Shown here piece by piece: positions 4,771 through 61,130 of a DNA stretch of 64,000 nucleotides; the first letter of the stretch is position 1; every line of letters starts with the position of its first letter. This DNA comes from Sympetrum striolatum. Lineage: Eukaryota; Arthropoda; Insecta; Odonata; Libellulidae. The translations under genes and the position numbers were made by a program. The DNA lies in the NCBI GenBank assembly GCA_947579665.1, contig OX388350.1, forward strand, positions 43,733,433 to 43,797,432, written 5' to 3'. The notes beneath the pieces were generated by a model. That model was not told where the DNA came from. It saw only the letters and a list, made by a program, of their open reading frames with translations, and did no database searches.

Positions 4771-4962
4771 GCTCGCCGAAACGTCGGCCCGAAAAAAGAA
4801 AGAACTGGGTTCGAGTCCCAGAAACGTCGAAATGTTCATTTTCATATGTGTTATGGTTTTAAAGTTGCTTAGTGAGGATCTTGATTCGTCGGTATTGGTT
4901 ACGTAGAGGGTTAAATTACTAGCCTAGCAACCTAGGGTCCCGGGTTCAAACCCTGGTTAGCA
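4771..4962 (+). repeat. Penelope-like motif plus two orphan tRNA T-arms
   Basis: CGCCGAAACGTCGG near 4775-4788 matches a motif common in the terminal regions of Penelope-like retroelements of arthropods (family knowledge). At 4805-4821 there is a perfect T-arm: stem CTGGG/CCCAG around loop TTCGAGT. A second T-arm-like hairpin (CCGGGTTCAAACCCTGG) follows at about 4938-4954, some 133 bp downstream, with no complete tRNA around either one. They look like tRNA-derived SINE debris related in style to the array at 30-38 kb. Confidence 0.5.
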
Positions 4963-15589: not shown

Positions 15590-17050
15590 CAGCAGCGCGT
15601 AAGACCGTCCGATTGGGGACGGGTTCCTGTCCTACAAACGACACCACCTAAATAATAGAGCGTTCGGAAGTTACCATCCGTTCCTAAATGAAAATAAACG
15701 CGCCGCGGTCTCGGTGATGTAAGAAGTTGCAGAATCACGTACGCGATACGTCTTCCAAATTACCTTGCGCTCTTCCGGATGATAACACCGTGAGGATCAG
15801 CACCGAGACCGCCAGAGACATAGTCGAGGTCCCCATGGCTGCTGCAGCCCCTTCTTTCACTACCAGTTATCTTTTTACGTACTCTCCCTGGGGAATAACC
15901 GTCCGCACAAACACACTGCGAAGGACTTTAATTCACTCGGAGTGTTCTTCTCAGCCGTGGCATCGGTGACGGAGTTCCTGCCCACTGTCCATTAACCTCG
16001 CAGAAGACACCACACCAGTCCCGGAGGCAATCCTACGTCACCGGACAGTCCAACGCCCGCGGTGGGTAATGAGTCCCTGCGGTCTGAGGCGAAGGAACGG
16101 AGGAAAAAGTCACCAACCGCGGGATGACCGATGACGTAATTTTCCTCCACCGAAACTCCGGTATCTCTCCTGGGGTAATCCGCACAAGAACCCACCGGTT
16201 CCACACCTCGACGACTACACCCACTGAAGACCACCCCGGCACTGGGCCGAAAGAGCACGCGCTATCGAACCGATAACGCCTTTCCTTCAGATAGGTCCTC
16301 AAAGTCCTTATCGAGATTTCGCGAAGAAACTTAGCGGGTGACACCGATTCTCCTCAAATTCGAGATCCTCTTATCGGGCTGATAAAGACTAGATTCGTGG
16401 GCAGTGAATTTCGACGCCTACGCTCACGGAGCTTCCAGACGGAGAGCTTCGCCAACCATGGAGGACCCGCTCTCGAGTACGGATACTTTTACGGGACGCA
16501 CTCGCGGGAGCTGATGGCAGATTCCGTCACAGACGGATCTTATGGGACGAACCCTATCGGCGAAACCTTCCGGAGAGGGGAGAACACCACTGGCGACGAC
16601 CGCGGGATCCTCTAGAGCGCTCGCGCAAATTCAGGCAGTGCCGTGGCCCGCGTTGTTCTAGCCGCGGCACCGATCTGACTCCGGCGACTGCTCTCAAGGG
16701 CGGGTTGTTGGGGAGAGATAGGTAGGGGAGGTAGCGGCAGATGGGGGGGGCAGAATGGGGGGGGCGCGCGCCAGAGAGTGGGGGGGAGTACGCGAAGGAG
16801 AGGAAGTCGTAAGAAACGGAGAAAAGAGGCAGGACGTGGAGAATGGAGCGCTAAAGGAGTCTCCGGGACGGACAGACAAGAGGGGAGAGAGGAACGACTT
16901 CATTCAAGGGATAGGAACTTAAGACTGCGCCCCCTTCGAGGGAAACCGATTGAAAGAATTCGATGATCACATCGGAGGAGTTGGATTGAGACTTTTTAGT
17001 CCCCCACGTAGATAACCTGTTTTTCTTTACGAGACCGGTCATATGTGGTC
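15590..17050. promoter_or_regulatory. Largest CpG-rich island, candidate promoter
   Basis: About 1.4 kb of strikingly CpG-rich sequence in an AT-rich neighbourhood, the longest such block in the window. It includes a G-tract cluster (16698-16786) and an ATG in fair context at about 16458, which opens only a very short frame. Frames of 60-103 codons on both strands overlap one another and show no family. Such a block could be a CpG-island promoter with untranslated first exon, or a conserved regulatory domain. No splice structure can be supported. Confidence 0.4.
16698..16786 (+). other. G-quadruplex-forming G-tract cluster
   Basis: GGGCGGG, GGGG, GGGG and three runs of seven or eight G (16743-16750, 16757-16764, 16780-16786) occur within 90 bp on the + strand, satisfying the four-tract rule several times over. 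It lies in the CpG-rich island. Formation in vivo is inferred. Confidence 0.7.
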
Positions 17051-22720: not shown

Positions 22721-24250
22721 TCAAATTTCTTTTAACCCTTTTTGCGGAGGTTCGTGGGCAAAGGAAGATGATACGTGATAATGGGCCTACTCTGAATAAT
22801 GAAATATTCACTGAATACAAGTGCGGCTAATTGAGGTTTTAAAGAGCTTCATAAAGCACCTCTATTTACCTTCCTACGTACTACAATTGTAATTCATTAC
22901 TAATAAATGTAGTCTTTATCCTTCCAAAGGTCCTCGGAAGGTCAACTTCCAAGTATATTAAAACAGCACGCAGTTTTGTTTGAGTTTTGCCTATTATTTT
23001 ATGCATATGAAGCGATTAGGTATTCACGCAATGAGTATTTTTTTAAATACGTACTTCTACTGAGTTTTTTTTTAAGGTAGAATTGAATTTTATTCAGCAC
23101 ATTATTTTATATTATACTTGTTGTGATGATATAAAATTCTACGGATCGATTTGGATAATAAGATTCAAATTTGACCATTTTTTTCAATTGTAGTGACAGT
23201 TAATACCTGCTCGCTGCTGTATATTTTGTTTTATGCTCTCCTTATAATATGTTTTGGTATTTATTTTTTAATTTTTTTATCCGTTTACTTTTTAGTTACA
23301 ATATTTCTTTATTCAGTCTATCTTAAAGACTTCCATCTGTTAACATATTTTTATAAATAAAAAAATGAAAATTAAGTTTTGAAATTTTGGCTCAAAACTT
23401 CGATATTTACATCCCCTTATAACCCCTTGAGTAAGATAGGTCTCAAGGAGAGTCTAATAGTTATTCAGAACCTATAATTTGTTTTGCAATAAAATATTCT
23501 TGTGTAAGAAGATATTGAATTGTAGTAAATACTTTATGCTACTCAGAGTACTTACTTCAAGTAAATTGATTTTCCCGTTTATTTTTTGAGGCTTTGTTTG
23601 AAATGATTCTAAGTTTACATACAATCATTTTGTTAAAGAGTACGTAAATACTATGCATACGTACTTCAAATTCCGATATCTTCGTATATCCAATGAAATA
23701 AAAACTTGTTTGAGATACGTGAAAATAAGAAATATAACCCAAAGCTCAATATATTTTACAATCCCTTCTATGTAAAAATTTAAAAAAACCTCAAAGTTTA
23801 CATTCGCTAGCTAGCCAGACAGCTATAAGAATGGACAGCGTCTGATTGTTCGTAGAGGCTAGACTCGTAGAAGAGGAAAATAATCCAGGTTCGAGATCGT
23901 CTCTCTGAGCAAGGGGTCGGCACAGAGCGTGAATCCCACCGAGAGGCACTCTTACAGCAGGGGAATGAACGGTCAAGAACAGAAGCAGATGAGGGTGTTT
24001 TTTGACATACTTCAGAAGAAAGGAAGAGAGAAAGTACAATTACTCGAGCAAGAGAGAAGAAAGAGACTTTAGACTGGATTCGGAATGCCTTGCCAGATTC
24101 ATAACAAGACATACAATTACAAAATTATATACAATACAAAAAGCACAATGAAAAACTATCTTCGGTTTATATTTTTTCAATTTATTACTAACTTAGTATT
24201 GATATAATTACGATATTTCACACTCCCCTAACAATCAATATTAGACTATT
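22721..24250. other. AT-rich spacer with a GC-richer patch
   Basis: Strongly AT-rich to about 23800. A purine-rich, CpG-bearing patch at 23800-24110 has overlapping minus-strand frames (82 and 101 codons) without a recognised family. Confidence 0.35.
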
Positions 24251-24269
24251 CCAGGAAGAGAAGTCGAGA

Positions 24270-24715
24270 TAGGACGGACGAGAAAACTCATGCCCCAACA
24301 AGGAGAAAACCATGTATCCCGGGGTTCGAACCCGGCAACTTTGCGTGGTAAAACAAGCAAGAAAATAATATTTAAAAATGCATTATCGAGAAATTAGGAA
24401 TTTTTATCCATACTAACATTAAACCCTAAAAAATATTAATACCTTAAAATTCGATAAGGGGAATAGCAATGCACGAACAGGAAAACCCATGCCCTTACCA
24501 GGGAAAACCGTAAAACCCGGGACTCGAACCCGGCACTTAAGCGTTAGTATAAAAGCAAGATAGGGATCCTACAATCGGATTGGCAAACAATATTATTTAA
24601 TAGTCATTAATTAACTAGAAATTTAGGATTTTTCTAGGGATGTTAAACATTGCAAACATAGAAATATATACAAATATATTTTAATACTTTAAGATTCTTG
24701 AGGAATGCACCATCT
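24270..24715 (-). repeat. Two-unit tandem repeat with orphan tRNA T-arms (about 199-bp period)
   Basis: 24283-24478 and 24482-24715 are diverged direct copies (AAAACTCATGCC/AAAACCCATGCC, GAGAAATTAGGAATTTT/TAGAAATTTAGGATTTTT, GAATGCAC-type ends). Each carries a strong minus-strand T-arm: CCCGGGGTTCGAACCCGG at about 24318-24335 and CCCGGGACTCGAACCCGG at about 24516-24533. No full tRNA fold surrounds them. This is a small tandem array of tRNA-derived monomers, independent of the larger one at 30-38 kb. Confidence 0.7.
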
Positions 24716-25090: not shown

Positions 25091-25480
25091 GGTAATATAT
25101 AAATAACTCAAAAACAATGAATGTTACATAAAAATGTTTCAAGCAAAAGTTGTAGCAAAATACATTATCTATAACTTTTGTAAAAATTCTAAATAAATAC
25201 ATCACATTCTGTCAGAGATATGTATAAAAAACTTACATTTCTGGTTAGACATTAACTTCCGGTTAACCATTATTCAAGAATAACTCCTAAACAACCAGTG
25301 TTACGAAAAAATGTTTCAAGCAAAAGTTGTAGTAAAGTACATTATCTATAACTTTTGCACATAATTGTATATACCTAGATTGCATCCTGACAGAGATATT
25401 TAAGAAACAACCTTTTGTTCCGGATAAACCGCAACTTCCGGTTAAGCGGTATTCATCAAAAAGTAATCAACTCTTGGTAT
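25091..25480 (+). repeat. 177-bp tandem repeat
   Basis: AATAACTC at 25102 and 25279, and ATGTTTCAAGCAAAAGTTGT at 25134 and 25311, are offset by exactly 177 bp. Each unit also contains ACATTATCTATAACTTTTG, a GACAGAGATAT block and ACTTCCGGTTAA-type sequence. A partial third unit starts near 25445. It is probably the internal repeat part of the element ending near 25712. Confidence 0.8.
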
Positions 25481-30231: not shown

Positions 30232-30262
<31 letters not shown>

Positions 30263-30264
<2 letters not shown>

Positions 30265-31400
30265 AGTAAAATGTTGCTTGCATACTGCAAGCAGATCGGC
30301 AACACTATTTTCATGTCGGCATCATATCCGGACGGCCATCAAAAGAAAAAAAAAAAATTGAAATTTTTCTTAAAATTTGCCTAAATTCCATCGTCTGGCA
30401 TCGAACCCGGGTCTTTACTGTGAACTTACTATGCAGCACAATAGAACATCACCATCTCTAACGATGTGTGAAAATTCAAGCAGAAATATGGGCTACAACT
30501 GCCTCAAAAGACGTTCTAATTTTCATGAATTTAAATGGCTCTCTGGATTCGAACCAAGGACGATCTTGGAAATCTAAAAAATGTTTCTGAAAGTTATTTA
30601 TGATCTCTATCTATATGCCGAATTTCAAGTTTCTATATAATTGGGAAATGGTTCCAAAAAATTCTTAAAAATCGGATCATTTACTGATTGTAGAGACGCC
30701 TGGTGGTAAAAGCAGGAAACATTGGTAGCTGTGAATTCACAGTTTGATTAGTAATGACTTGATCTTATCTTATGCAAAGTTTCAAGTAGATATAATATCG
30801 GGAAGCACCTAAAATGCGTTTCCGTAATCTCCATAAGAAATGCATTGAGGAATGTAAATGGCCCTCTGGGATCGAACCAAGGACCATAAGGGAATATGTA
30901 AAATTTGATTATGAAATATGATTATGATATCTAACGCCATGCCGAATTTCAAGTTTCTATGCCATCGGAAAAGGGTTCAAAAAAAAACTTAAAAATCGCC
31001 GCAATGCATTTTAAACGGCCGACTTTTGCCCCGTCCTAGCATCGAACCTAGGATAATATTCGTGGATATCTTTATGGTTTTCTTTTGATATGGGGGGCAT
31101 CTAGCGATCCCTCGAGTTTCAACTCTCTCCTTTTCCGGGAAGTGCCTCAAATAAATTTTCGAAAATCCCCGCCATGTAATCTTATGGGGAAAATCGCGAC
31201 TTTGGGGCCTTCTGGAATCGAACCCATGATACCGAGGATCAAAGTCGCTTTTTTCCTGGGGGTTTCACGTTATGGCCAATACGTGGTAAAAATTTCGAGT
31301 CAATGACGCCAGTAGTTTAGCCTGTGAATTAGTATCCTATCTGGGTATCTGGGTATCTGGGTATATCATGAGTGAATCCGGAGAAGCATCTATATATAAT
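30263..31400 (-). repeat. HOR unit m1 (minus strand, F to A)
   Basis: T-arm cores at 30398-30408 (F), 30545-30555 (E), a lost D site near 30705, 30868-30878 (C), 31038-31048 (B) and 31213-31223 (A). The terminal hairpin is at 30276-30292. The D monomer has replaced its TCGAAC core by a diverged sequence, the only core completely lost in the array. The far end holds TATCTGGG repeated three times (about 31338-31363) and half of the palindrome sequence. Confidence 0.9.
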
Positions 31401-31420
31401 AGATATATATATATATATAC

Positions 31421-32417
31421 GAGTAAAATGTAGCTTGCATACTGCAAGCAGATGGACAACACTCATTTCATGTCGGCATCATATCGGGACGGCCCTCAAA
31501 AGAAAAAAAAGGGATTGAAAATATTCTTAAAATTTGCTGCAATTTAATCGTCTGGCATTGAACCCGGGTCTTACTGGTGAACTTACTAAGCAGCACATTA
31601 GAAAATCACCATCTCTATGTGTGAAAATTCAAGCAGAAATATAGGCTACAACTGCCTCAAAAGACGTTCTAATTTTCATGAATGTAAATGGCTCTCTGGT
31701 TTCGAACCAAGGACGATCTAGGAAATCTAAAACATGTTTTTAAAAGGTATTTATTTATGTTTTCTATCTATATGCCTAATTTCATGTTTTAATATTATTG
31801 GGAAGGGGTTTAAATTCATTCTTAAAAATCGGTTAAATTACTGATTGCAGAGACACCTGGTGTCGAACCCAGGAAATATTGGTAGCTGTGAATAGACAGT
31901 ATGACTTATTAGGACTTCATCTTATTTCATACAAAGTTTGAAGTCGATATCATACCGGGAAGTACCTAAAACGTTTTTCGTTTATCTCCATAAGAAATGT
32001 ATGGAGGAATGTAAATGGCTCTCTGGGATCGAACCAAGGACCATCAGCGAATGTGTAAAATTTGATTATTAAATATATTTATGATATCTAAACCCATGCC
32101 GAATTTTGAGTTTCCATGAATTCGGGAAAGGGTCCAAAAAAAATATTAAAAATCGCCACAATGCATTTTAAACGGCCGATTTTTGCACTGACCTAGCATC
32201 GAACCCAGGTTATTTTTCATAAAACTAATTTATGTTTTCGATAGATCATGACCATATATAAAGGCTCCTGGAGTTTTAAGTTCCTACCTATCCGGCAAGT
32301 ATTTTTTTTTAATTCCCGAAAATCAAAGTAATGCATTTAAACGGGAAAAATCGGGACTTTGGAGCCCCCTGGAATCGAACCCATGACACTGAGGATCGAA
32401 ATCGCAATTTTTCTGGA
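31421..32417 (-). repeat. HOR unit m2 (minus strand), truncated at inversion
   Basis: Hairpin at 31433-31449; cores at 31554-31564 (F, mutated to GGTTCAA), 31698-31708 (E), 31859-31869 (D), 32025-32035 (C), 32195-32205 (B) and 32371-32381 (A). The A monomer breaks off at about 32416-32420, where the sequence switches to the + orientation in the distal part of monomer C. Confidence 0.9.
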
Positions 32418-32920
32418 GAGATTAAGTGTATACAAATCAAACTGTGCATTCCCAGCTGTCAATGTGTCCTTGGTTCGACACCAGGCGTTTCTACAATCAG
32501 TAACTGATCCGATTTTCAATAATTATTTTGAACCCTTTCCCAGCAATATAGAAACTTGAAATTCGGCATGTAGATAGAGATTATAAATAACTTTCAGAAA
32601 CATATTTTAGGTTTCCATGATCGTCCTTGGTTCGAATCCAGAGAGCCATTTAAATTCGTGAAAATTAGAACGTCTTTTGAGGCAGTTGTAGCCCATATTT
32701 CTTCTTGAATTTTCACACATAGTTAGAGATGGCGATGTTCTATTGTGCTGCATAGTAAGTTCAACAGTAAAGACCCGGGTTCGTTGCCAGACGATGGAAT
32801 TTCAGCGAATTTTAAGAAAAATTTCAATCCATTTTTTCTTTTGATGGCCGTCCCGAAATGATGCCGACATGAAAATAGTGTTGTCGATCTGCTTGCAGTA
32901 TGCAAGCAACATTTTACTCG
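32418..32920 (+). repeat. HOR unit p1 (partial, C-tail to F)
   Basis: Starts inside monomer C at the inversion junction. Cores at 32472-32482 (D), 32629-32639 (E) and about 32778 (F, core changed to GGTTCGT). Terminal hairpin 32891-32907, followed by TATATTCATATATTCATA and a TA run. Confidence 0.9.
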
Positions 32921-32952
32921 TATATTCATATATTCATATATATATATATATA

Positions 32953-34031
32953 GAGAGGATACAAAGTCACAGGCTAAACCACTAGCGTCAATGGCTTGAA
33001 ATTTTTACGACATATTGGCCATAACGTATAACCTCCAGAAAAATTGCGATTTTGAACCTCAGTGTCATGGGTTCGATTCCAGAGGGCCCCAAAGTCCCGA
33101 TTTTTCCCGTTTAAATGCATTGCTTTGATTTTCGGGAATTTTAAAAAAATACTTTCCGGATAGGTAGAGAATCGAAACTCAAGGAGCCTATATATATGGT
33201 CATCATCTATCGAAAACATAAATGAGTTTTACGGAAAATATCCTGGGTTCGATGCTAGGTCGGGGCAAAAATCGGCCGTTTAAATTGCATTGTGGCGATT
33301 TTTAAGATTTTTTTTGGACCCCTTCCCGATGGCATGGAAACTTGAAATTTCGCATGGGGTTAGAAATCATAAATATATTTCATAATAAAATTTTTTGTAT
33401 TCGCTTATGGTCCTTGGTTCGATCCCAGAGGGCCATTTGCACTCCACAATGCATTTCTTATGGGTATAACGGAAACAAATTTTAGGTACTTCCCGGCGTG
33501 CTATCGACTTAAAACTTAGCATGATAGGAGAACCAGTCTTAACAAATCACAAAATGCATTCATAGCTATCAATGTTTCCTGGGTTCGACACCAGGTGTCT
33601 CTGCAATCAGAAGTTGATCCGATTTTTTGGAATTATTTTGAAACCTTTCCTAATAATATAGAAACTTGAAATTTGGCATATAGATTGAGATCAATAATAA
33701 CTTTCAGAAACATTTTTTAAATTTACAAAATCGTCCTTGGTTCGAGTCCCGAGAGCCATTTACATTCGTGAACATTAGAGCGTCTTTTGAGGCAGTTGTA
33801 GCCAATATTTCTGCTTGAATTTTCACACATAGTTAGAGATGGTGATCTTCTATTGTGTTTCATAGTAGGTTTTCCAGTAAGACCCGGGTTCGATTCCAGA
33901 CGATGAAATTTCAGCGAATTTTAAGAAAAAATTAAATCCATTTTTTTTCTTATGAGGACCGTCCCGATATGATGCCGATATGAAATTAGTATTGCCGATC
34001 TGCTTGCAGTATGCAAGCTACATTTTACTCG
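32953..34031 (+). repeat. HOR unit p2 (complete)
   Basis: Cores at 33070 (A), 33246 (B), 33416 (C), 33582 (D), 33739 (E) and 33887 (F), giving spacings 176, 170, 166, 157, 148. Hairpin 34002-34018. Confidence 0.95.
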
Positions 34032-34055
34032 TATATATATATATATATATGGATA

Positions 34056-34095
34056 CATGAATGAATCCGGAGAAGCATCTATATATAATAGATAC

Positions 34096-34183
<88 letters not shown>

Positions 34184-34217
34184 ATTATATATAGATGCTT
34201 CTCCGGATTCATTCATG
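34056..34217. repeat. 162-bp palindrome with TA core
   Basis: Perfect 39-bp inverted arms (34056-34094 and 34179-34217), each holding GAATCCGGAGAAGCATC in one orientation or the other, around an alternating TA tract of about 84 bp. It would extrude a cruciform or stall polymerases. Single half-palindromes occur at the ends of other units (31365-31405, 35323-35360, 36487-36546). Confidence 0.95.
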
Positions 34218-35322
34218 TATATACCTATATAGATAGATAGATAGATAGGATACTAATTCACAGCCTAAACCACAAGCGTGATTGACTTGAAATTTTTACG
34301 GCGTATTGGCCATAACGTACAACCACCAGAAAAAATGCGATTTTGAACCTCAGTGTCATGGGTTCGATTCCAGAAGGCCCCAAAGTCGCGATTTTCCCCA
34401 TAAGTATACATGGCGGGGATTTTAGAAATTTTTTTTGAGGCACTTCCCGGTAAAGGAGAGAGTTGAAATTCCAGAGATCGCTAGAAGCCGTGCATATCCA
34501 ACGAAATTCATAAAGTTATTTTCAAATATTGTCCATGGTTCGATGCTAGGTCGGGGCAAAAATCAGCCGTTTAAAATGCATTGTGGAGATTTTTAAGATT
34601 TTTTTTGGACCCTTTCCCGATGACATGGAAACTTGAAACTCGGGACGTGGATAGGAATTATGAATAAATGTCATAATCTAATTTTATCTTTTCACTGATG
34701 GTCCTTGGTTCGATCCCAGAGGGCCATTTACATTCCTCAATGCATTTCTTATGGAGATAACGGTAACAAATTTTAGGTACTTCCCTGCATGCTATCGACT
34801 TCAAACTTTGCAAGATACAAGAACAAGTTATTAAAAATCAAACTTTGTATTCACAGCTTACAATACGTCCTAGGTTCGACACCAGGTATCTCTGCAATCA
34901 GAAGTTGATCTGATTTTTAGAGATTATTTTGAAACCTTTGCCAATAATATAGAAATTTGAAATTCGGCATATAGATAGAGATCATTAATAAATTTCAGAA
35001 ACATATTTTAGATTTCCAAGATCGTCCTTGGTTCGAATCCAGAGAGCCATTTACATTCGTGAAAATTAGAACGTCTTTTGAGGCAGTTGTAGCCAATATT
35101 TCTGCTTTAATTTTTACACATAGTTAGAGATGGTGATCTTCTAATGTGCTGCATATTAAGTTCACCAGTAAGACCCGGGTTCGATACCAGACCATGATAT
35201 TTCAGCGATTTTTAAGAAAAAATTCAATCCTTTTTTTTTCTTTTGAGGACCGTCCCGATATGATGCCGATATGAAATTAGTATTGCCGATCTGCTTGCAG
35301 TATGCAAGCTATATTTTACTCG
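34218..35322 (+). repeat. HOR unit p3 (complete)
   Basis: Begins with a GATA microsatellite (AGATAGATAGATAGATAGG). Cores at 34361, 34537, 34707, 34873, 35030 and 35178 with the same 176-170-166-157-148 spacing. Hairpin 35293-35309. Confidence 0.95.
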
Positions 35323-36465
35323 TCTATTATATATAGATGCTTCTCCGGATTCATTCATGTATATACCTATATAGATAAATAGATAGATAGGATACTAATT
35401 CACAGCCTAAACCACCAGCGTGATTGACTTGAAATTTTTACGACGTATTGGCCATAACGTGTAACCGCCAGAAAAATTGCGATTTTGATCCTCAGGGTCA
35501 TGGGTTCGATTCCAGAGGGCCCCAAAGTCGCGATTTTCTCCATAAGAATACATGGCGGGGATTTTCGAAAATTTTTTTGAGGTACTTCCCGGGGAGAGAA
35601 AGAGTTGAAACTCGAGGGATCGCTAGAAGCCGTGCGTATCCAACGAAAATCAGAAAAACATCTTAGAATATAGTCCATGGTTCGATGCTTGGTCGGGGCA
35701 AAAATCGGCCGTTTAAAATGCATTACGGCGATTTTGAAGATTTTTTTTGGATCCTTTCCCGATAACATGGATATTCGAAACTCGGCACGTGGAAAGATAT
35801 CATGAATATACTTCATAATCAAATTTTACATGTTCGCTGATGGTCCTTGGTTCGATCCCAGAGGGCCATTTGCACTTCTCAATGCATTTCTTACGGAGAC
35901 AACGGAAACAAAATTTAGGTACTTTCCGACATGCTATCAACTTCAAACTTTGCTTGATACAAGAGTAAGTCTTTACACATCAAACTCTGCATTCACAGCT
36001 TGCAATACGTCCTGGGTTCGACACCAGGTGTCTCTGAAATCAGAATTTGATCCGATTTTTAGGAATTATTTTGAAACCTTTCCCACTAAAATAGAAACTT
36101 GAAATTCGGCATATAGATAGAGATCATAAATATCTATCAGAAACATATTTTAGAATTCCACGATCGTCCTTGGTTCGAGTCCCGAGAGGCATTAACATTC
36201 GTGAAAATTAGAACGTTTTTTGAGGCAGTTATAGCCAATATTTCTGCTTGAATTTTCACACATAGTTAGAGATGGTGATCTTCTATTGGGTTTCATAGTA
36301 GGTTTACCAGTAAGACCCGGGTTCGATGCCAGACGATGAAATTTCAGCGAATTTTAAGAAAAAATTAAATCCTTTTTTTTTTCTTTTAAAGACCGTCCCG
36401 ATATGATGCCGATATGAAATTAGTATTGCCGATCTGCTTGCAGTATGCAAGCTACATTTTACTCG
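35323..36465 (+). repeat. HOR unit p4 (complete)
   Basis: Cores at 35503, 35679, 35849, 36015, 36172 and 36320, identical spacing. Hairpin 36436-36452. The unit starts with the half-palindrome directly joined to p3, without a long TA tract, so the linker is dispensable to the array. Confidence 0.95.
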
Positions 36466-36572
36466 TATATATATATATATATATATATCTATTATATATA
36501 GACGCTTCTCCGGATATCTTCTATTATATATAGACGTTTCTCCGGATATACCTATATATATATATATATATA

Positions 36573-37649
36573 GGGGATCAAAATTCTAACCATGTTCCAC
36601 AAGTGCCACCGACTTGAAATTTTTACGACGTTATGGCCATAACGTGTAACCTCCAGGAAAAAGCCGACTTTGAACCTCAGTGTCATGGGTTCGATTCCAG
36701 AAGGCCCCAAAGTCGCGATTTTCCCCATAAGAATACATGGCGGGGATTTTCGAAAATTTTTTTGAGGCACTTCCCGGAAAAGTAGAGAGTTGAAATTCGA
36801 GGGATCGCTAGATGCCGTGGATATGTAACGAAAATAAAAAAGTCATCTTCGAATATTGTCCATGGTTCGATGCTAGGTTGGGGCAAATATCGGCCGTTTA
36901 AAATGCATTGCGGCGATTTTTAAGATTTTATTCATACCATTTGCCGATGGCATGGAAACTTGAAATTCGGCATGAGGTTAGATATCATGAATATATTTCA
37001 TAATAAAATTTTACATGTTCGCTGATGGTCCTTGGTTCGATCCCAGAGGGCCCTTTGCACTTCTCTATGCATTTCTTACGGAGATAAGGGAAACAAAATT
37101 TAGGTACTTCCCGGCATGCTATCGACTTCAATCTTTGCATGATAGAAGAGCAAGACTTAATAAATCAAACTATGCATTCACAGCTATCAATGTGTCCTGG
37201 GTTCGACACCAGGTGTCTCTGCAATCAGAAGTTGTTCCGATTTTTAGGAATTATTTTGAAACCTTTCCCAATAATATAGAAACTTGAAATTTGACATATA
37301 GATTGAGATGACTAATACCTTTCAGAACAATATTTTTAATTTCCAAGATCGTCCTTGGTTCGAGTCCCGAGAGCCATTTACATTCGTGAACATTAGAGCG
37401 TCTTTTGAGGCAGTTGTAGCCCATATTTCTGCTTGAATTTTCACACATAGTTAGATATGGTGATGTTCTACTTTGGTGCATAGTAAGTTCACAGTAAAGA
37501 CCCGGGTTCGATGCCAGACGATAGAATTTCAGCGAATTTTCAGAAAAATTTCAATCCATTTTTTTCTTTTGATGGCCGTCCCGATATGATGCCGACATGA
37601 AAATAGTGTTGCCGATCTGCTTGCAGTATGCAAGCAACATTTTACTTGT
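36573..37649 (+). repeat. HOR unit p5 (complete)
   Basis: Cores at 36688, 36864, 37034, 37200, 37357 and 37505, identical spacing. Hairpin 37619-37635. The linker before it (36487-36572) has the half-palindrome duplicated and a TA run. Its A-monomer start (CATGTTCCACAAGTGCC) differs from p2-p4 and matches p6, defining a sub-family. Confidence 0.95.
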
Positions 37650-37687
37650 ACCTATATATAAGTTATACCTATATATATATATATATA

Positions 37688-38459
37688 GTGGATCAAAAGT
37701 TTTACCATGTTCCACAAGTGCCAAAGACTTGAAATTTTTACGACGTATTGGCCATAACGTGTAACCTCCAGGAAAAAGCCGACATTGAACCTCGGTGTCA
37801 TGGGTTCGATTCCAGAAGGCCCCAAAGTCCCGATTTTCTCCATAAGGATACATGGTGGCGATTTTCAAAATTTTTTTAATAATACTTCCCGGACAGGTAG
37901 AGAATCGAAATTCAAGGAGCTTAGAGATATGGTCAAGAACTATTATAAACATTAATGATTACTAATGAGAACGTCCTGGGTTCGACGCTAGGACGATGCA
38001 AAAATCCCGCATTTAAAATGCATGGGGATAGTTTTTCATTAATTTTTTTGATGCACTTACCGGAATGTAAGGAACTTTTCGCTCAGCTACAAGATATATA
38101 TTAAGAATTGGTTTAAGAAAAAAATTTCTTAAGCCCGTACTATTCCTGGGTTCGATGCCAGAGCACATTAACATTTCTCTCATAAGGAATATAAGCGAAA
38201 AGTAGGACGTCGTTTGAGGCAGTTGCAGCCAATATTTCTGCTCGAATTTTCACACATAGTTAGAGATGGTTATCTTCTATGGTTCTGCATAGTAAGTTTG
38301 ACCGGGAAGACCTGGGTTCGATGCCAGACGAATAAATTGCAGCGGAAATTAAGAATATTTTCCGTCCATTTTTTTTTCTTTTGAGGACTCACTCTATGTG
38401 ATGCCGACAAAAAACTTTTGTTATCGATGTGCTTGCAGTATGCAAGCAACATTTTACTC

Positions 38460-38462
<3 letters not shown>
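37688..38462 (+). repeat. HOR unit p6 (four-monomer, diverged terminal unit)
   Basis: Cores at 37803 (A), 37979 (B-type), 38149 (chimeric) and 38315 (F), with spacings 176, 170 and 166 bp. The third monomer starts differently from C but its distal part (GAGGCAGTTGCAGCCAATAT) is monomer E, so D and part of E were lost by an exchange that kept the phase. Hairpin 38431-38447. It is the most diverged unit and lies at the array edge, as expected for satellite ends. Confidence 0.9.

Positions 38463-38548
<86 letters not shown>
38463..38548. repeat. TA microsatellite
   Basis: About 85 bp of nearly pure alternating TA at the right end of the array, matching the shorter TA run that opens the array at 30234-30262. 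Confidence 0.95.
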
Positions 38549-38599
38549 AATCCATTACGTGGGCCATAAAAGTTTTCAGAGCTCTTTCAATAAATAAAT

Positions 38600-60982: not shown

Positions 60983-61130
60983 GGCTCCCGGATAGCCATG
61001 TAGGCAGCTTCGGCTTTGGTGAAAGTGGCCCCGGGTTCGATTCCCGGTGGGAGCCCACGCGCGAAATGACCAAAGCTGTCGAAACACTTTTAACAACACT
61101 ACCACTACTACTATATTTTCCTTCCTTCTT
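60983..61130 (+). mobile_element. tRNA-derived SINE with intact A and B boxes
   Basis: 60983-61055 is tRNA-like: GGCTCCC pairs with GGGAGCC (61049-61055), and the T-arm is CCGGG-TTCGATT-CCCGG (61031-61047). An A box TAGCCATGTAGG lies at 60993-61004 and a B box GGTTCGATTCC at 61034-61044. There is one extra base between T-arm and acceptor, and no convincing anticodon stem, so it is a SINE head rather than a tRNA gene. The body (ACCAAAGCTGTCGAAACAC and a CTACCACTACTACTA stretch) follows. It is the best-preserved pol III promoter in the window. Confidence 0.75.

Follow-up and report, generated by a model that had tools for sequence, protein, structure and literature searches.

An array of B boxes stands in this DNA of Sympetrum striolatum, and ARAGORN finds no tRNA genes in the window, meaning here the whole stretch of 64,000 nucleotides that was analysed. 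The array raises three questions, namely (i) whether it is a satellite grown on the spot or a gathering of mobile elements, (ii) from which element its units derive, and (iii) what has kept the boxes in place. An earlier, sequence-only reading had proposed a satellite of amplified tRNA-derived monomers, each with a tRNA T-arm or B-box motif, that might serve as a TFIIIC-binding domain, insulator or pol III transcription array.

The counts given in that reading hold on recounting. Between 30,234 and 38,550 there are 43 B-box-like sites, 40 of them exact GGTTCGA cores where base composition predicts ~0.6; across the window the core has 52 matches against 6.6 expected from shuffles, and 0/100 shuffles reach 52. 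The other three sites comprise two with one mismatch (31564, minus; 32778, plus) and a decayed one at a D position (30712, minus). The first 12 sites (30407-32381) lie on the minus strand and the remaining 31 on the plus strand, with a head-to-head junction between the two halves near 32419. The ordered classes A to F also reappear with the same spacings between cores: A-B 176, B-C 170, C-D 166, D-E 157 and E-F 148 bp. The span from core A to core F is 824 bp in 6/6 full units, and in u-2 the E core is displaced by 4 bp (spacings 161 and 144). The exception to the order is u5, which runs A, B, x, F, with x a monomer type of its own. Eight units, ~1.1 kb long when full, lie in the window. A unit begins with a 5' terminus (TCTATTATATATAGATGCTTC...) and a short microsatellite, continues with about six monomers of ~150-176 bp holding one B box each, and closes with a 3' terminus made of a 17-nt palindrome (identical in 8/8 window units), 13 nt and CTCG. 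The features are as follows.

30263..31403, minus strand: u-1, complete copy of the non-autonomous Helitron, running from a 5' end at 31403 to a 3' CTCG end at 30263; B boxes at six positions (minus strand), the D one (30712) decayed.
31420..32418, minus strand: u-2, 3' end at 31420, 5' side cut by the head-to-head junction at ~32418/32419.
32419..32920, plus strand: u0, 5'-truncated, starting before the D core, with D, E and F; one mismatch in the F core.
32921..34031, plus strand: u1, monomers A-F; its 5' limit, within a TA tract, is inexact.
34057..34093, minus strand: inverted ~38-bp 5' terminal module between u1 and u2, recognised by sequence.
34181..35322, plus strand: u2, full copy (TC...CTCG), 0.999 identity to a copy in L009.
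35323..36465, plus strand: u3, full copy (TC...CTCG).
36488..37648, plus strand: u4, full copy, 5' module duplicated, 3' end CTTG.
37649..38460, plus strand: u5, diverged copy, monomers A, B, x, F.
35503..35513, plus strand: example B box, class A of u3, GGTTCGATTCC.
35679, 35849, 36015, 36172 and 36320, plus strand: starts of the B to F boxes of u3.
36436..36452, plus strand: 3' subterminal palindrome of u3, GCTTGCAGTATGCAAGC, 13 nt before the 3' end.
36453..36465, plus strand: 3' terminus of u3, TACATTTTACTCG, then (TA)n.
30292 and 31449 (minus strand), 32891, 34002, 35293, 36436, 37619 and 38431 (plus strand): starts of the palindrome GCTTGCAGTATGCAAGC.

The ~38-bp module is also found between units at other loci, in either orientation. 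The order A, B, x, F of u5 is also that with which the leaders of full-length Helitrons open.

The units are spread far beyond this locus. The exact 30-base 3' terminus occurs 30,040 times (14,925 + 15,115) in the 1.35-Gb host genome, and a reversed control 0 times. Six of the eight window units have their closest relative among 75 fetched copies and not among their window neighbours; u-1 has its nearest relative in u0, ahead of every fetched copy, and u5 gives a tie (0.806) in a comparison that leaves out its own subfamily and sets 75 outside candidates against 7 in the window. Pieces 87-92% identical to u5 are present in L026. For u3 there are about 40 other copies at 99-100% identity (40 candidates scored), and 19 of 20 fetched u3 loci also hold other units, the copy at L027 standing solo. 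A 2,282-bp block of u2 and u3 recurs at 99.6% identity on another contig, and L011 has three 98-100% identical units in tandem. A 40-kb sample taken at eight round coordinates held no unit, with ~0.9 expected if the copies, which cluster, were evenly spread; an exact pattern search of viral_contigs and genome_contigs gave no match, nor did a distant-mode search of plasmids. The array is a cluster of dispersed mobile elements with defined ends, not a higher-order satellite made by local duplication.

The partner element is found in the same genome, where the Pfam family PF14214 has 93 matches. In L050, a 1,755-aa frame contains Helitron_like_N (2.4e-45) and PIF1 helicase (3.2e-58) domains; a C-terminal endonuclease is absent from the Pfam domains of this one partner copy at E 1e-3. 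The palindrome and CTCG of the units also end 6/9 copies of the PF14214 group, whose domains are Rep and PIF1 helicase; as for the remaining copies, L051 stops before its end, L056 has no match and L057 has partial matches only. Ten long frames of the window show no Pfam domain. In Helitrons, the hairpin sits about 10-12 nt before the 3' end. The units end CTCG followed by T in 75/75 fetched copies (CTTG in u4), so they are filed as a Helitron variant, through ends common with a Rep-helicase element, and not as a canonical member, whose 3' end would be CTRR. The 5' terminus is TC, read as TA/TCTATT (the slash marks the edge) at 4/5 edges against other DNA (L011, L021, L025, L027), the fifth edge (L012) being without the 5' module. 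Insertion edges have A before, T after and TA on both sides, which fits A^T insertion with no target duplication as well as a TA duplication; the search for an empty insertion site found none. Subterminal inverted repeats of 11-15 bp, as in Helentron and HINE elements, were rejected (best 6/7 in u3, no better than shuffles).

The full-length element has B boxes too. In all four group copies whose upstream side was read, B-box monomers precede the Rep-helicase gene, with 10 boxes in L059+L050, 10 in L060, 5 in L061 (where a short unit directly in front holds another 6) and 7 in L062; 30 of these are exact and 2 have one mismatch. The leader runs A, B, then x-F pairs, and the copies align at about 79-83% over the x-F part and the DNA after it. 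Short units that run A,B,x,F,x,F and then the 3' end, the same order as in the leader, are found in L010 and L011. The sole unbroken read from 5' terminus through boxes to gene is that of L059+L050, in which an A-F set is fused to x-F pairs. In L062 the 5' terminus runs directly into A, x, F, the read ending ~0.8 kb short of where the gene should begin; in L061 the leader comes after a nearly complete short unit, with the 5' end behind that unit; no 5' terminus was seen upstream of the leader in L060. Some of what reads as leader may therefore be short units that inserted next to a truncated Helitron. In other Helitron groups (L047-L049), the 0.8-1.8 kb read upstream of the frames is too short for leader comparison. 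The 3' hairpin terminus and the upstream B-box monomers, both common with Rep-helicase Helitrons, mark the units as non-autonomous Helitrons with internal deletions, which descend from full-length Helitrons of this genome. One short subfamily found at dispersed sites, A,B,x,F,x,F (u5, as A,B,x,F, in the window), is the leader joined to the 3' end, and the A-F units are its sister subfamily.

What has kept the boxes is the harder question. The motif agrees with the pol III B box of 11 bp (GGTTCGANNCC), positions 7-8 being free, and as in extra-TFIIIC (ETC) sites it occurs here with no tRNA gene; a complete T stem is present in 1/43 sites. By core position, the core is the best conserved 7-column run of the window units (7/294 mismatches), and 7/20,000 random placements score as low. 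Taken by class, B stands out (1/170 windows of the alignment as low) and A (15/169), C (22/168) and E (20/172) are less marked; the core is not outstanding in D (84/170), where one copy has 5 core mismatches, or in F (64/176), where two copies have 1 each. Among other 7-mers, 59/857 are kept in at least 87.5% of window units. In 49 dereplicated copies with a mean identity of 85%, 264/294 cores are intact, with 34 mismatches against 203±56 and 0/20,000 draws as low, the fetched copies having been sampled through similarity to u3. CpGs are retained at 280/294 in the cores and at 1429/1762 elsewhere in these copies. Hypermutation was rejected as a source of the divergence, since 111 of 261 singletons are transitions and 150 are transversions, and they bear no deaminase pattern. 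Two points bear on the sequence-only reading: against it, the repeat proves to belong to a known transposon at superfamily level (Helitron); for it, the core is indeed better conserved than its flanks. Its satellite half falls and its B-box half holds.

Spacing is kept as well. Core distances equal the mode in 73, 70, 73, 72 and 61 of 75 copies, and two A-B linkers that are 58% identical have yet the same length, 151 bp. The A-F interval of the six full units holds 2 indels and at least 353 substitutions, whereas 18 further pairs of repeats in the window have 27 gap openings and 288 mismatches; the comparison suggests a spacing constraint, and only suggests it, because the control is small and its pairs are short and not independent. 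The 49 copies give 72 indel calls in the interval, a good many of which are neighbouring one-base pairs that offset each other.

The best explanation of the whole, and a probable one, is a cluster of short non-coding Helitrons that piled up at TA sites, with boxes perhaps kept for TFIIIC docking. The Rep protein of the full-length element would move copies into TA-rich sites, and the TA tracts at the copies' own ends would serve as insertion sites too, so that copies would pile up, mostly head to tail and sometimes inverted. Mixed orientations, TA junctions and the two-unit block on another contig point to this insertion history. That the B boxes form an element-selected TFIIIC-docking array in the Helitron leader is, on its own, a tentative proposal, rated somewhat short of even. 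TFIIIC would dock on bare B-box sites without pol III, as at extra-TFIIIC sites, and could keep the leader open or shielded from silencing; selection would act on the element lineage, which would be why boxes and spacing persist in subfamilies ~15% apart. More doubtful is the fuller version, in which a Helitron lineage has equipped its transposase leader with a TFIIIC-docking ladder and dispersed this through deletion derivatives.

It is unlikely, if worth serious weight, that the motif is the site of another protein, either the element's Rep or a host zinc-finger or CENP-B-like factor, and resembles a B box only in appearance. On that view the motif would act in transposition, with the array as a subterminal docking ladder. 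Conserved positions also lie outside the B box, at -6..-3 and +11..+13 (all 43 sites have C at -4 and G at +12), the full-length copies have boxes too, and across the 49 copies the boxes show about the same conservation as the 3' palindrome and the blocks TGAAATTTTTA, CCGTTTAAA, ATGCATTTCTTA and AATTTTCACAC. However, every fixed position of the motif is that of the tRNA B box, with the same two free positions. Helitrons require terminal sequences and a 3' hairpin and are not known to need internal ladders. The CENP-B box has the consensus NTTCGNNNNANNCGGGN, and as a candidate it was rejected, with 3-7 of 9 essential bases matching across the 43 sites.

It is improbable that TFIIIC docking should be replaced by a pol III promoter array, in which each monomer would direct synthesis of a short RNA that stops at a T run 30-70 bp downstream. 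T4 runs do lie within 120 bp after the B box in 72-75/75 copies for classes A, B, D, E and F, but in only 31/75 for class C, and T runs are common in AT-rich DNA. The best A-box scores are no better than those of shuffles, and ordinary tRNA-type pol III transcription is disfavoured by the lack of an A box. Alifold z-scores of 0.6 to -2.8 over 12 class/strand sets give no RNA fold signal, and the lowest sets (C and D, minus strand) follow no T-arm logic. Rfam has no match at gathering score in the window; the matches at relaxed E-values, many to AT-rich miRNA models, fall far below gathering scores and were set aside. A tRNA-derived SINE was likewise rejected, the pairing of A box with B box being absent and the T-arm stem complete in just 1/43 sites.

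Quite improbable, too, is that the boxes simply travel along, as an old tandem repeat of tRNA origin that a Helitron took up, and look conserved because of recent spread or a low mutation rate. Non-autonomous Helentron elements usually do have tandem repeats at their centre (PMC7492417, PMC4067079), but the intact cores at 85% mean identity, with 0/20,000 random placements as conserved, and the better retention of core CpGs argue against mere carriage. A higher-order satellite that arose from local tandem duplication and is maintained by the host can be all but dismissed: the regular A-F order, the head-to-tail runs, the tandem at L011 and the closeness of u-1 to u0 would suit it, but not the distant relatives of 6/8 window units, the solo copy, the mixed orientation or the 3' end common with Rep-helicase Helitrons.

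If the TFIIIC-docking reading is true, sites for a host pol III factor are kept under selection as an array in a transposon. The units supply a great number of natural replicates, some with intact and others with broken boxes, for work on chromatin, leader transcription and transposition. At ~six boxes to each full unit, the 30,040 exact 3' ends extrapolate to an order of 10^5 orphan B boxes that may exist in the genome, and with so many one transposon might titrate TFIIIC and redraw chromatin boundaries genome-wide. In one full-text literature collection, no publication linking TFIIIC, Helitron and B box was found, and searches with short unit sequences gave no match.

Among known systems, Helitrons have the same Rep and PIF1 helicase domains as the units' partner. 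Canonical Helitrons, represented by the non-autonomous Hel-2 of Lepidoptera, have in common with the units a 5'-TC start, a 3' hairpin, A/T flanks and a microsatellite near the 5' end; the units differ in ending CTCG rather than CTRR, in having ~six B-box monomers at near-fixed spacing and in adjoining one another (PMC4344730). HINE, DINE-1 and Helentron elements are similarly non-coding, with a 5' microsatellite, a palindrome near the 3' end and central tandem monomers of ~140-180 bp, whereas the units are without subterminal inverted repeats and occupy TA-rich rather than T-rich sites (PMC4067079, PMC7492417); the endonuclease is missing among the Pfam matches of the one partner copy. Dense B boxes, partly on a repeat family (CeRep3), also characterise the ETC clusters of C. 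elegans, but those sites have A and B boxes and resemble tRNA pseudogenes, whereas the units have the B box only, are Helitron-borne and are known here from sequence (PMC6950938). The IR boundary elements of S. pombe likewise place several B boxes, five, in a small interval; they are host mating-type boundaries of tested function, and the array is a mobile element (PMC4502379). In nematode satellites with CENP-B-box-like motifs, as here, a short motif is better kept than its monomer (PMC3694981), and SINE-derived satellites are tandem repeats born from mobile elements (PMC10702118). In contrast with both, the tandem monomers of the present array are themselves part of transposons (PMC3694981, PMC10702118).

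The array at 30234-38550 is built of eight units (u-2, u-1 and u0-u5; ~1.1 kb when full) and contains 43 monomers: 40 with an exact GGTTCGA core, where 0.6 matches are expected, two with one mismatch and one decayed site. The whole window has 52 matches against 6.6 expected. The six monomer classes (A-F, one core each) and the spacings described in the sequence-only reading agree with the reanalysis, but the first 12 sites are on minus and the last 31 on plus, with a head-to-head junction between the two halves at ~32419. Within 30234-38550 the spacing declines steadily from 176 (A-B) to 148 (E-F), perhaps by chance. ARAGORN calls no tRNA in the array, no Rfam family matches it, its monomers give no RNA-fold signal and no A box scores above shuffles; a complete T-arm stem is present in one of the 43 window monomers.

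The array unit is a mobile element. Its 3' end consists of a 17-nt palindrome, identical in all eight window units, and 13 nt closing with CTCG, directly followed by T in 75/75 fetched copies. The exact 30-base 3' end occurs 30,040 times in the genome, and its reversed control not once. The 5' end reads TA and then TCTATTATATATAGATGCTTC at four of the five edges bordering other DNA; the fifth, at locus L012, is without this ~38-bp 5' module, which also lies between units in both orientations. At 99-100% identity, u3 recurs in ~40 other places among the candidates scored (40 of the 4,811 first-look candidates, giving 66 matches). Twenty fetched loci hold 75 full-length units (40 minus, 35 plus) in clusters mixing subfamilies and orientations, and one locus, L027, holds a solitary copy. 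With 75 candidates elsewhere and 7 in the window, six of the eight window units have their closer relative elsewhere (best identity 0.962 versus 0.863 for u1, 0.999 versus 0.890 for u2); u5 ties between window and distant relatives, and u-1 is nearer u0. Together u2 and u3 form a 2,282-bp block with a 99.6% identical copy on another contig. Clustering would follow from a preference for TA-rich targets, because the elements themselves end in TA tracts. Three head-to-tail units at L011:2541-5896, 98-100% identical, have the appearance of tandem copies, unlike the mixed clusters elsewhere.

The unit's partner is a Helitron. The 93 genome matches to PF14214 (Helitron_like_N) were split by score into four groups, and one 10-kb locus was examined per group. 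At L050, a 1,755-aa frame with Helitron_like_N and PIF1 helicase is followed 1.36 kb downstream by the unit 3' terminus, which is absent within 3.7-4.0 kb downstream in the other three group loci. The terminus is also found in five of eight additional L050-group members (L052-L055, L058); L056 has no match, L057 partial matches only, and the L051 sequence stops before the element end. Short units adjoin the Helitron 3' termini in L050, L052-L055 and, as judged by its 5' module, L058. The common 3' part is longer in L054 and L055 (~250 bp, F monomer included) and could be a copy that is nested or fused. In other Helitron groups, L048 (G000:C8:65.58 Mb) and L049 (C26:81.87 Mb) have frames of >1,700 aa and 99% identical copies, several young Helitron lineages thus lying side by side in the genome.

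B-box monomers precede the gene in all four copies examined, at spacings of 148-176 bp, the leaders of L060-L062 being covered to ~0.8 kb before the expected gene start. With x denoting a separate monomer type, the L059+L050 leader begins at the 5' terminus with A-F and continues as x, F, x, F up to the frame, which lies ~1.4 kb beyond the last box. In L062 the 5' terminus is followed by A, x, F, x, F, x, F, B being decayed, and L060, without a 5' terminus, has A, B, x, F, x, F and a further A, B, x, x. At L061, a short A-F unit with the palindrome and no CTCG end stands ahead of a leader A, x, F, x, F. Excluding this short unit, the leader cores number 30 exact and two with one mismatch. Part of the leader monomers may instead derive from short units inserted next to a shortened Helitron. 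Short units with the order A, B, x, F, x, F and the 3' end are dispersed (L010, L011), and u5 in the window has the order A, B, x, F. These short units resemble the leader fused to the 3' end, and units of the A-F type form a sister subfamily.

In the window, the cores of 42 aligned monomers have 7 mismatches in 294 cells, against a mean of 31 for random placements (7/20,000 as low), and the 19-bp arm has 30 against 84 (1/20,000 as low); all 43 monomers have C at -4 and G at +12. By class, the cores of B show clear conservation in the window, those of A, C and E a weaker signal and those of D and F none. The fetched copies were picked via u3 and are therefore a non-random sample; dereplication at 95% left 49, of mean identity 85%. 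In these, 264 of 294 cores are intact, with 34 mismatches against 203±56 for placements (0/20,000 as low), and CpGs are kept in 280/294 cases in cores versus 1429/1762 elsewhere. The stretches of at least 9 bp in which no column exceeds 6% mismatch fall on four of the six B boxes, on the 3' palindrome and 3' end, and on four further blocks. The modal core-to-core distance is kept in 61-73 of 75 copies, and two A-B linkers are only 58% identical, yet both are 151 bp long. As judged from these alignments of copies sampled through u3, the B boxes of the units are under selection.

B boxes also occur outside the array. The motif GGTTCGANNCC has seven sites in the rest of the window (0.28 expected) and two in eight 5-kb stretches at round coordinates (0.1 expected), one of them within a tRNA-like SINE also found in the window; the 18.9 kb flanking fetched copies add two, both at L011. 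Isolated B boxes lie in non-array window DNA at 4808 (+), 21492 (-) and 27408 (-). Other features of the window, their hairpin, acceptor-stem and exon calls made by eye, are as follows.

Other repeats and features in the window
60983-61107, plus strand: tRNA-like SINE head in which an A-box-like stretch and a B box accompany a closed 7-bp acceptor stem
24230-24560, minus strand: degenerate tandem pair whose two B boxes, 198 bp apart, each have a complete T-arm stem
25102-25455, minus strand: 177-bp tandem dimer with a ACCGGAAGT-like motif and a CAAAAGTT...AACTTTTG hairpin
~15770-15840, minus strand: short reading frame resembling an exon for a signal peptide with a splice donor behind it

The SINE head has an 83% copy at L031:1864-1991, and ARAGORN calls no tRNA in it. 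The tandem pair has no BLAST similarity to the array and is a candidate for another B-box repeat family. The ACCGGAAGT-like motif is presumably an ETS-type site.

The Helitron group and its derivatives thus carry bare B boxes, kept in the derivatives. TFIIIC would dock at these boxes without pol III and would keep the Helitron leader open. The main rival, because conserved positions reach past the B box, is that another DNA-binding protein, perhaps encoded by the element, recognises the motif. Docking by TFIIIC has parallels: boundary elements of S. pombe are described with five B boxes (PMC4502379), and many C. elegans extra-TFIIIC clusters are reported to sit on CeRep3 repeats, although those sites, unlike the array, also have A boxes (PMC6950938). 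Satellite-like monomers, a microsatellite and a 3' palindrome have been described in non-autonomous Helitron-like elements (PMC7492417, PMC4067079, PMC4344730); the array unit differs from these elements in that subTIRs were not found and CTCG stands in place of CTRR. A limited literature search, partly of titles and abstract openings, found no published Helitron with a conserved B-box ladder.
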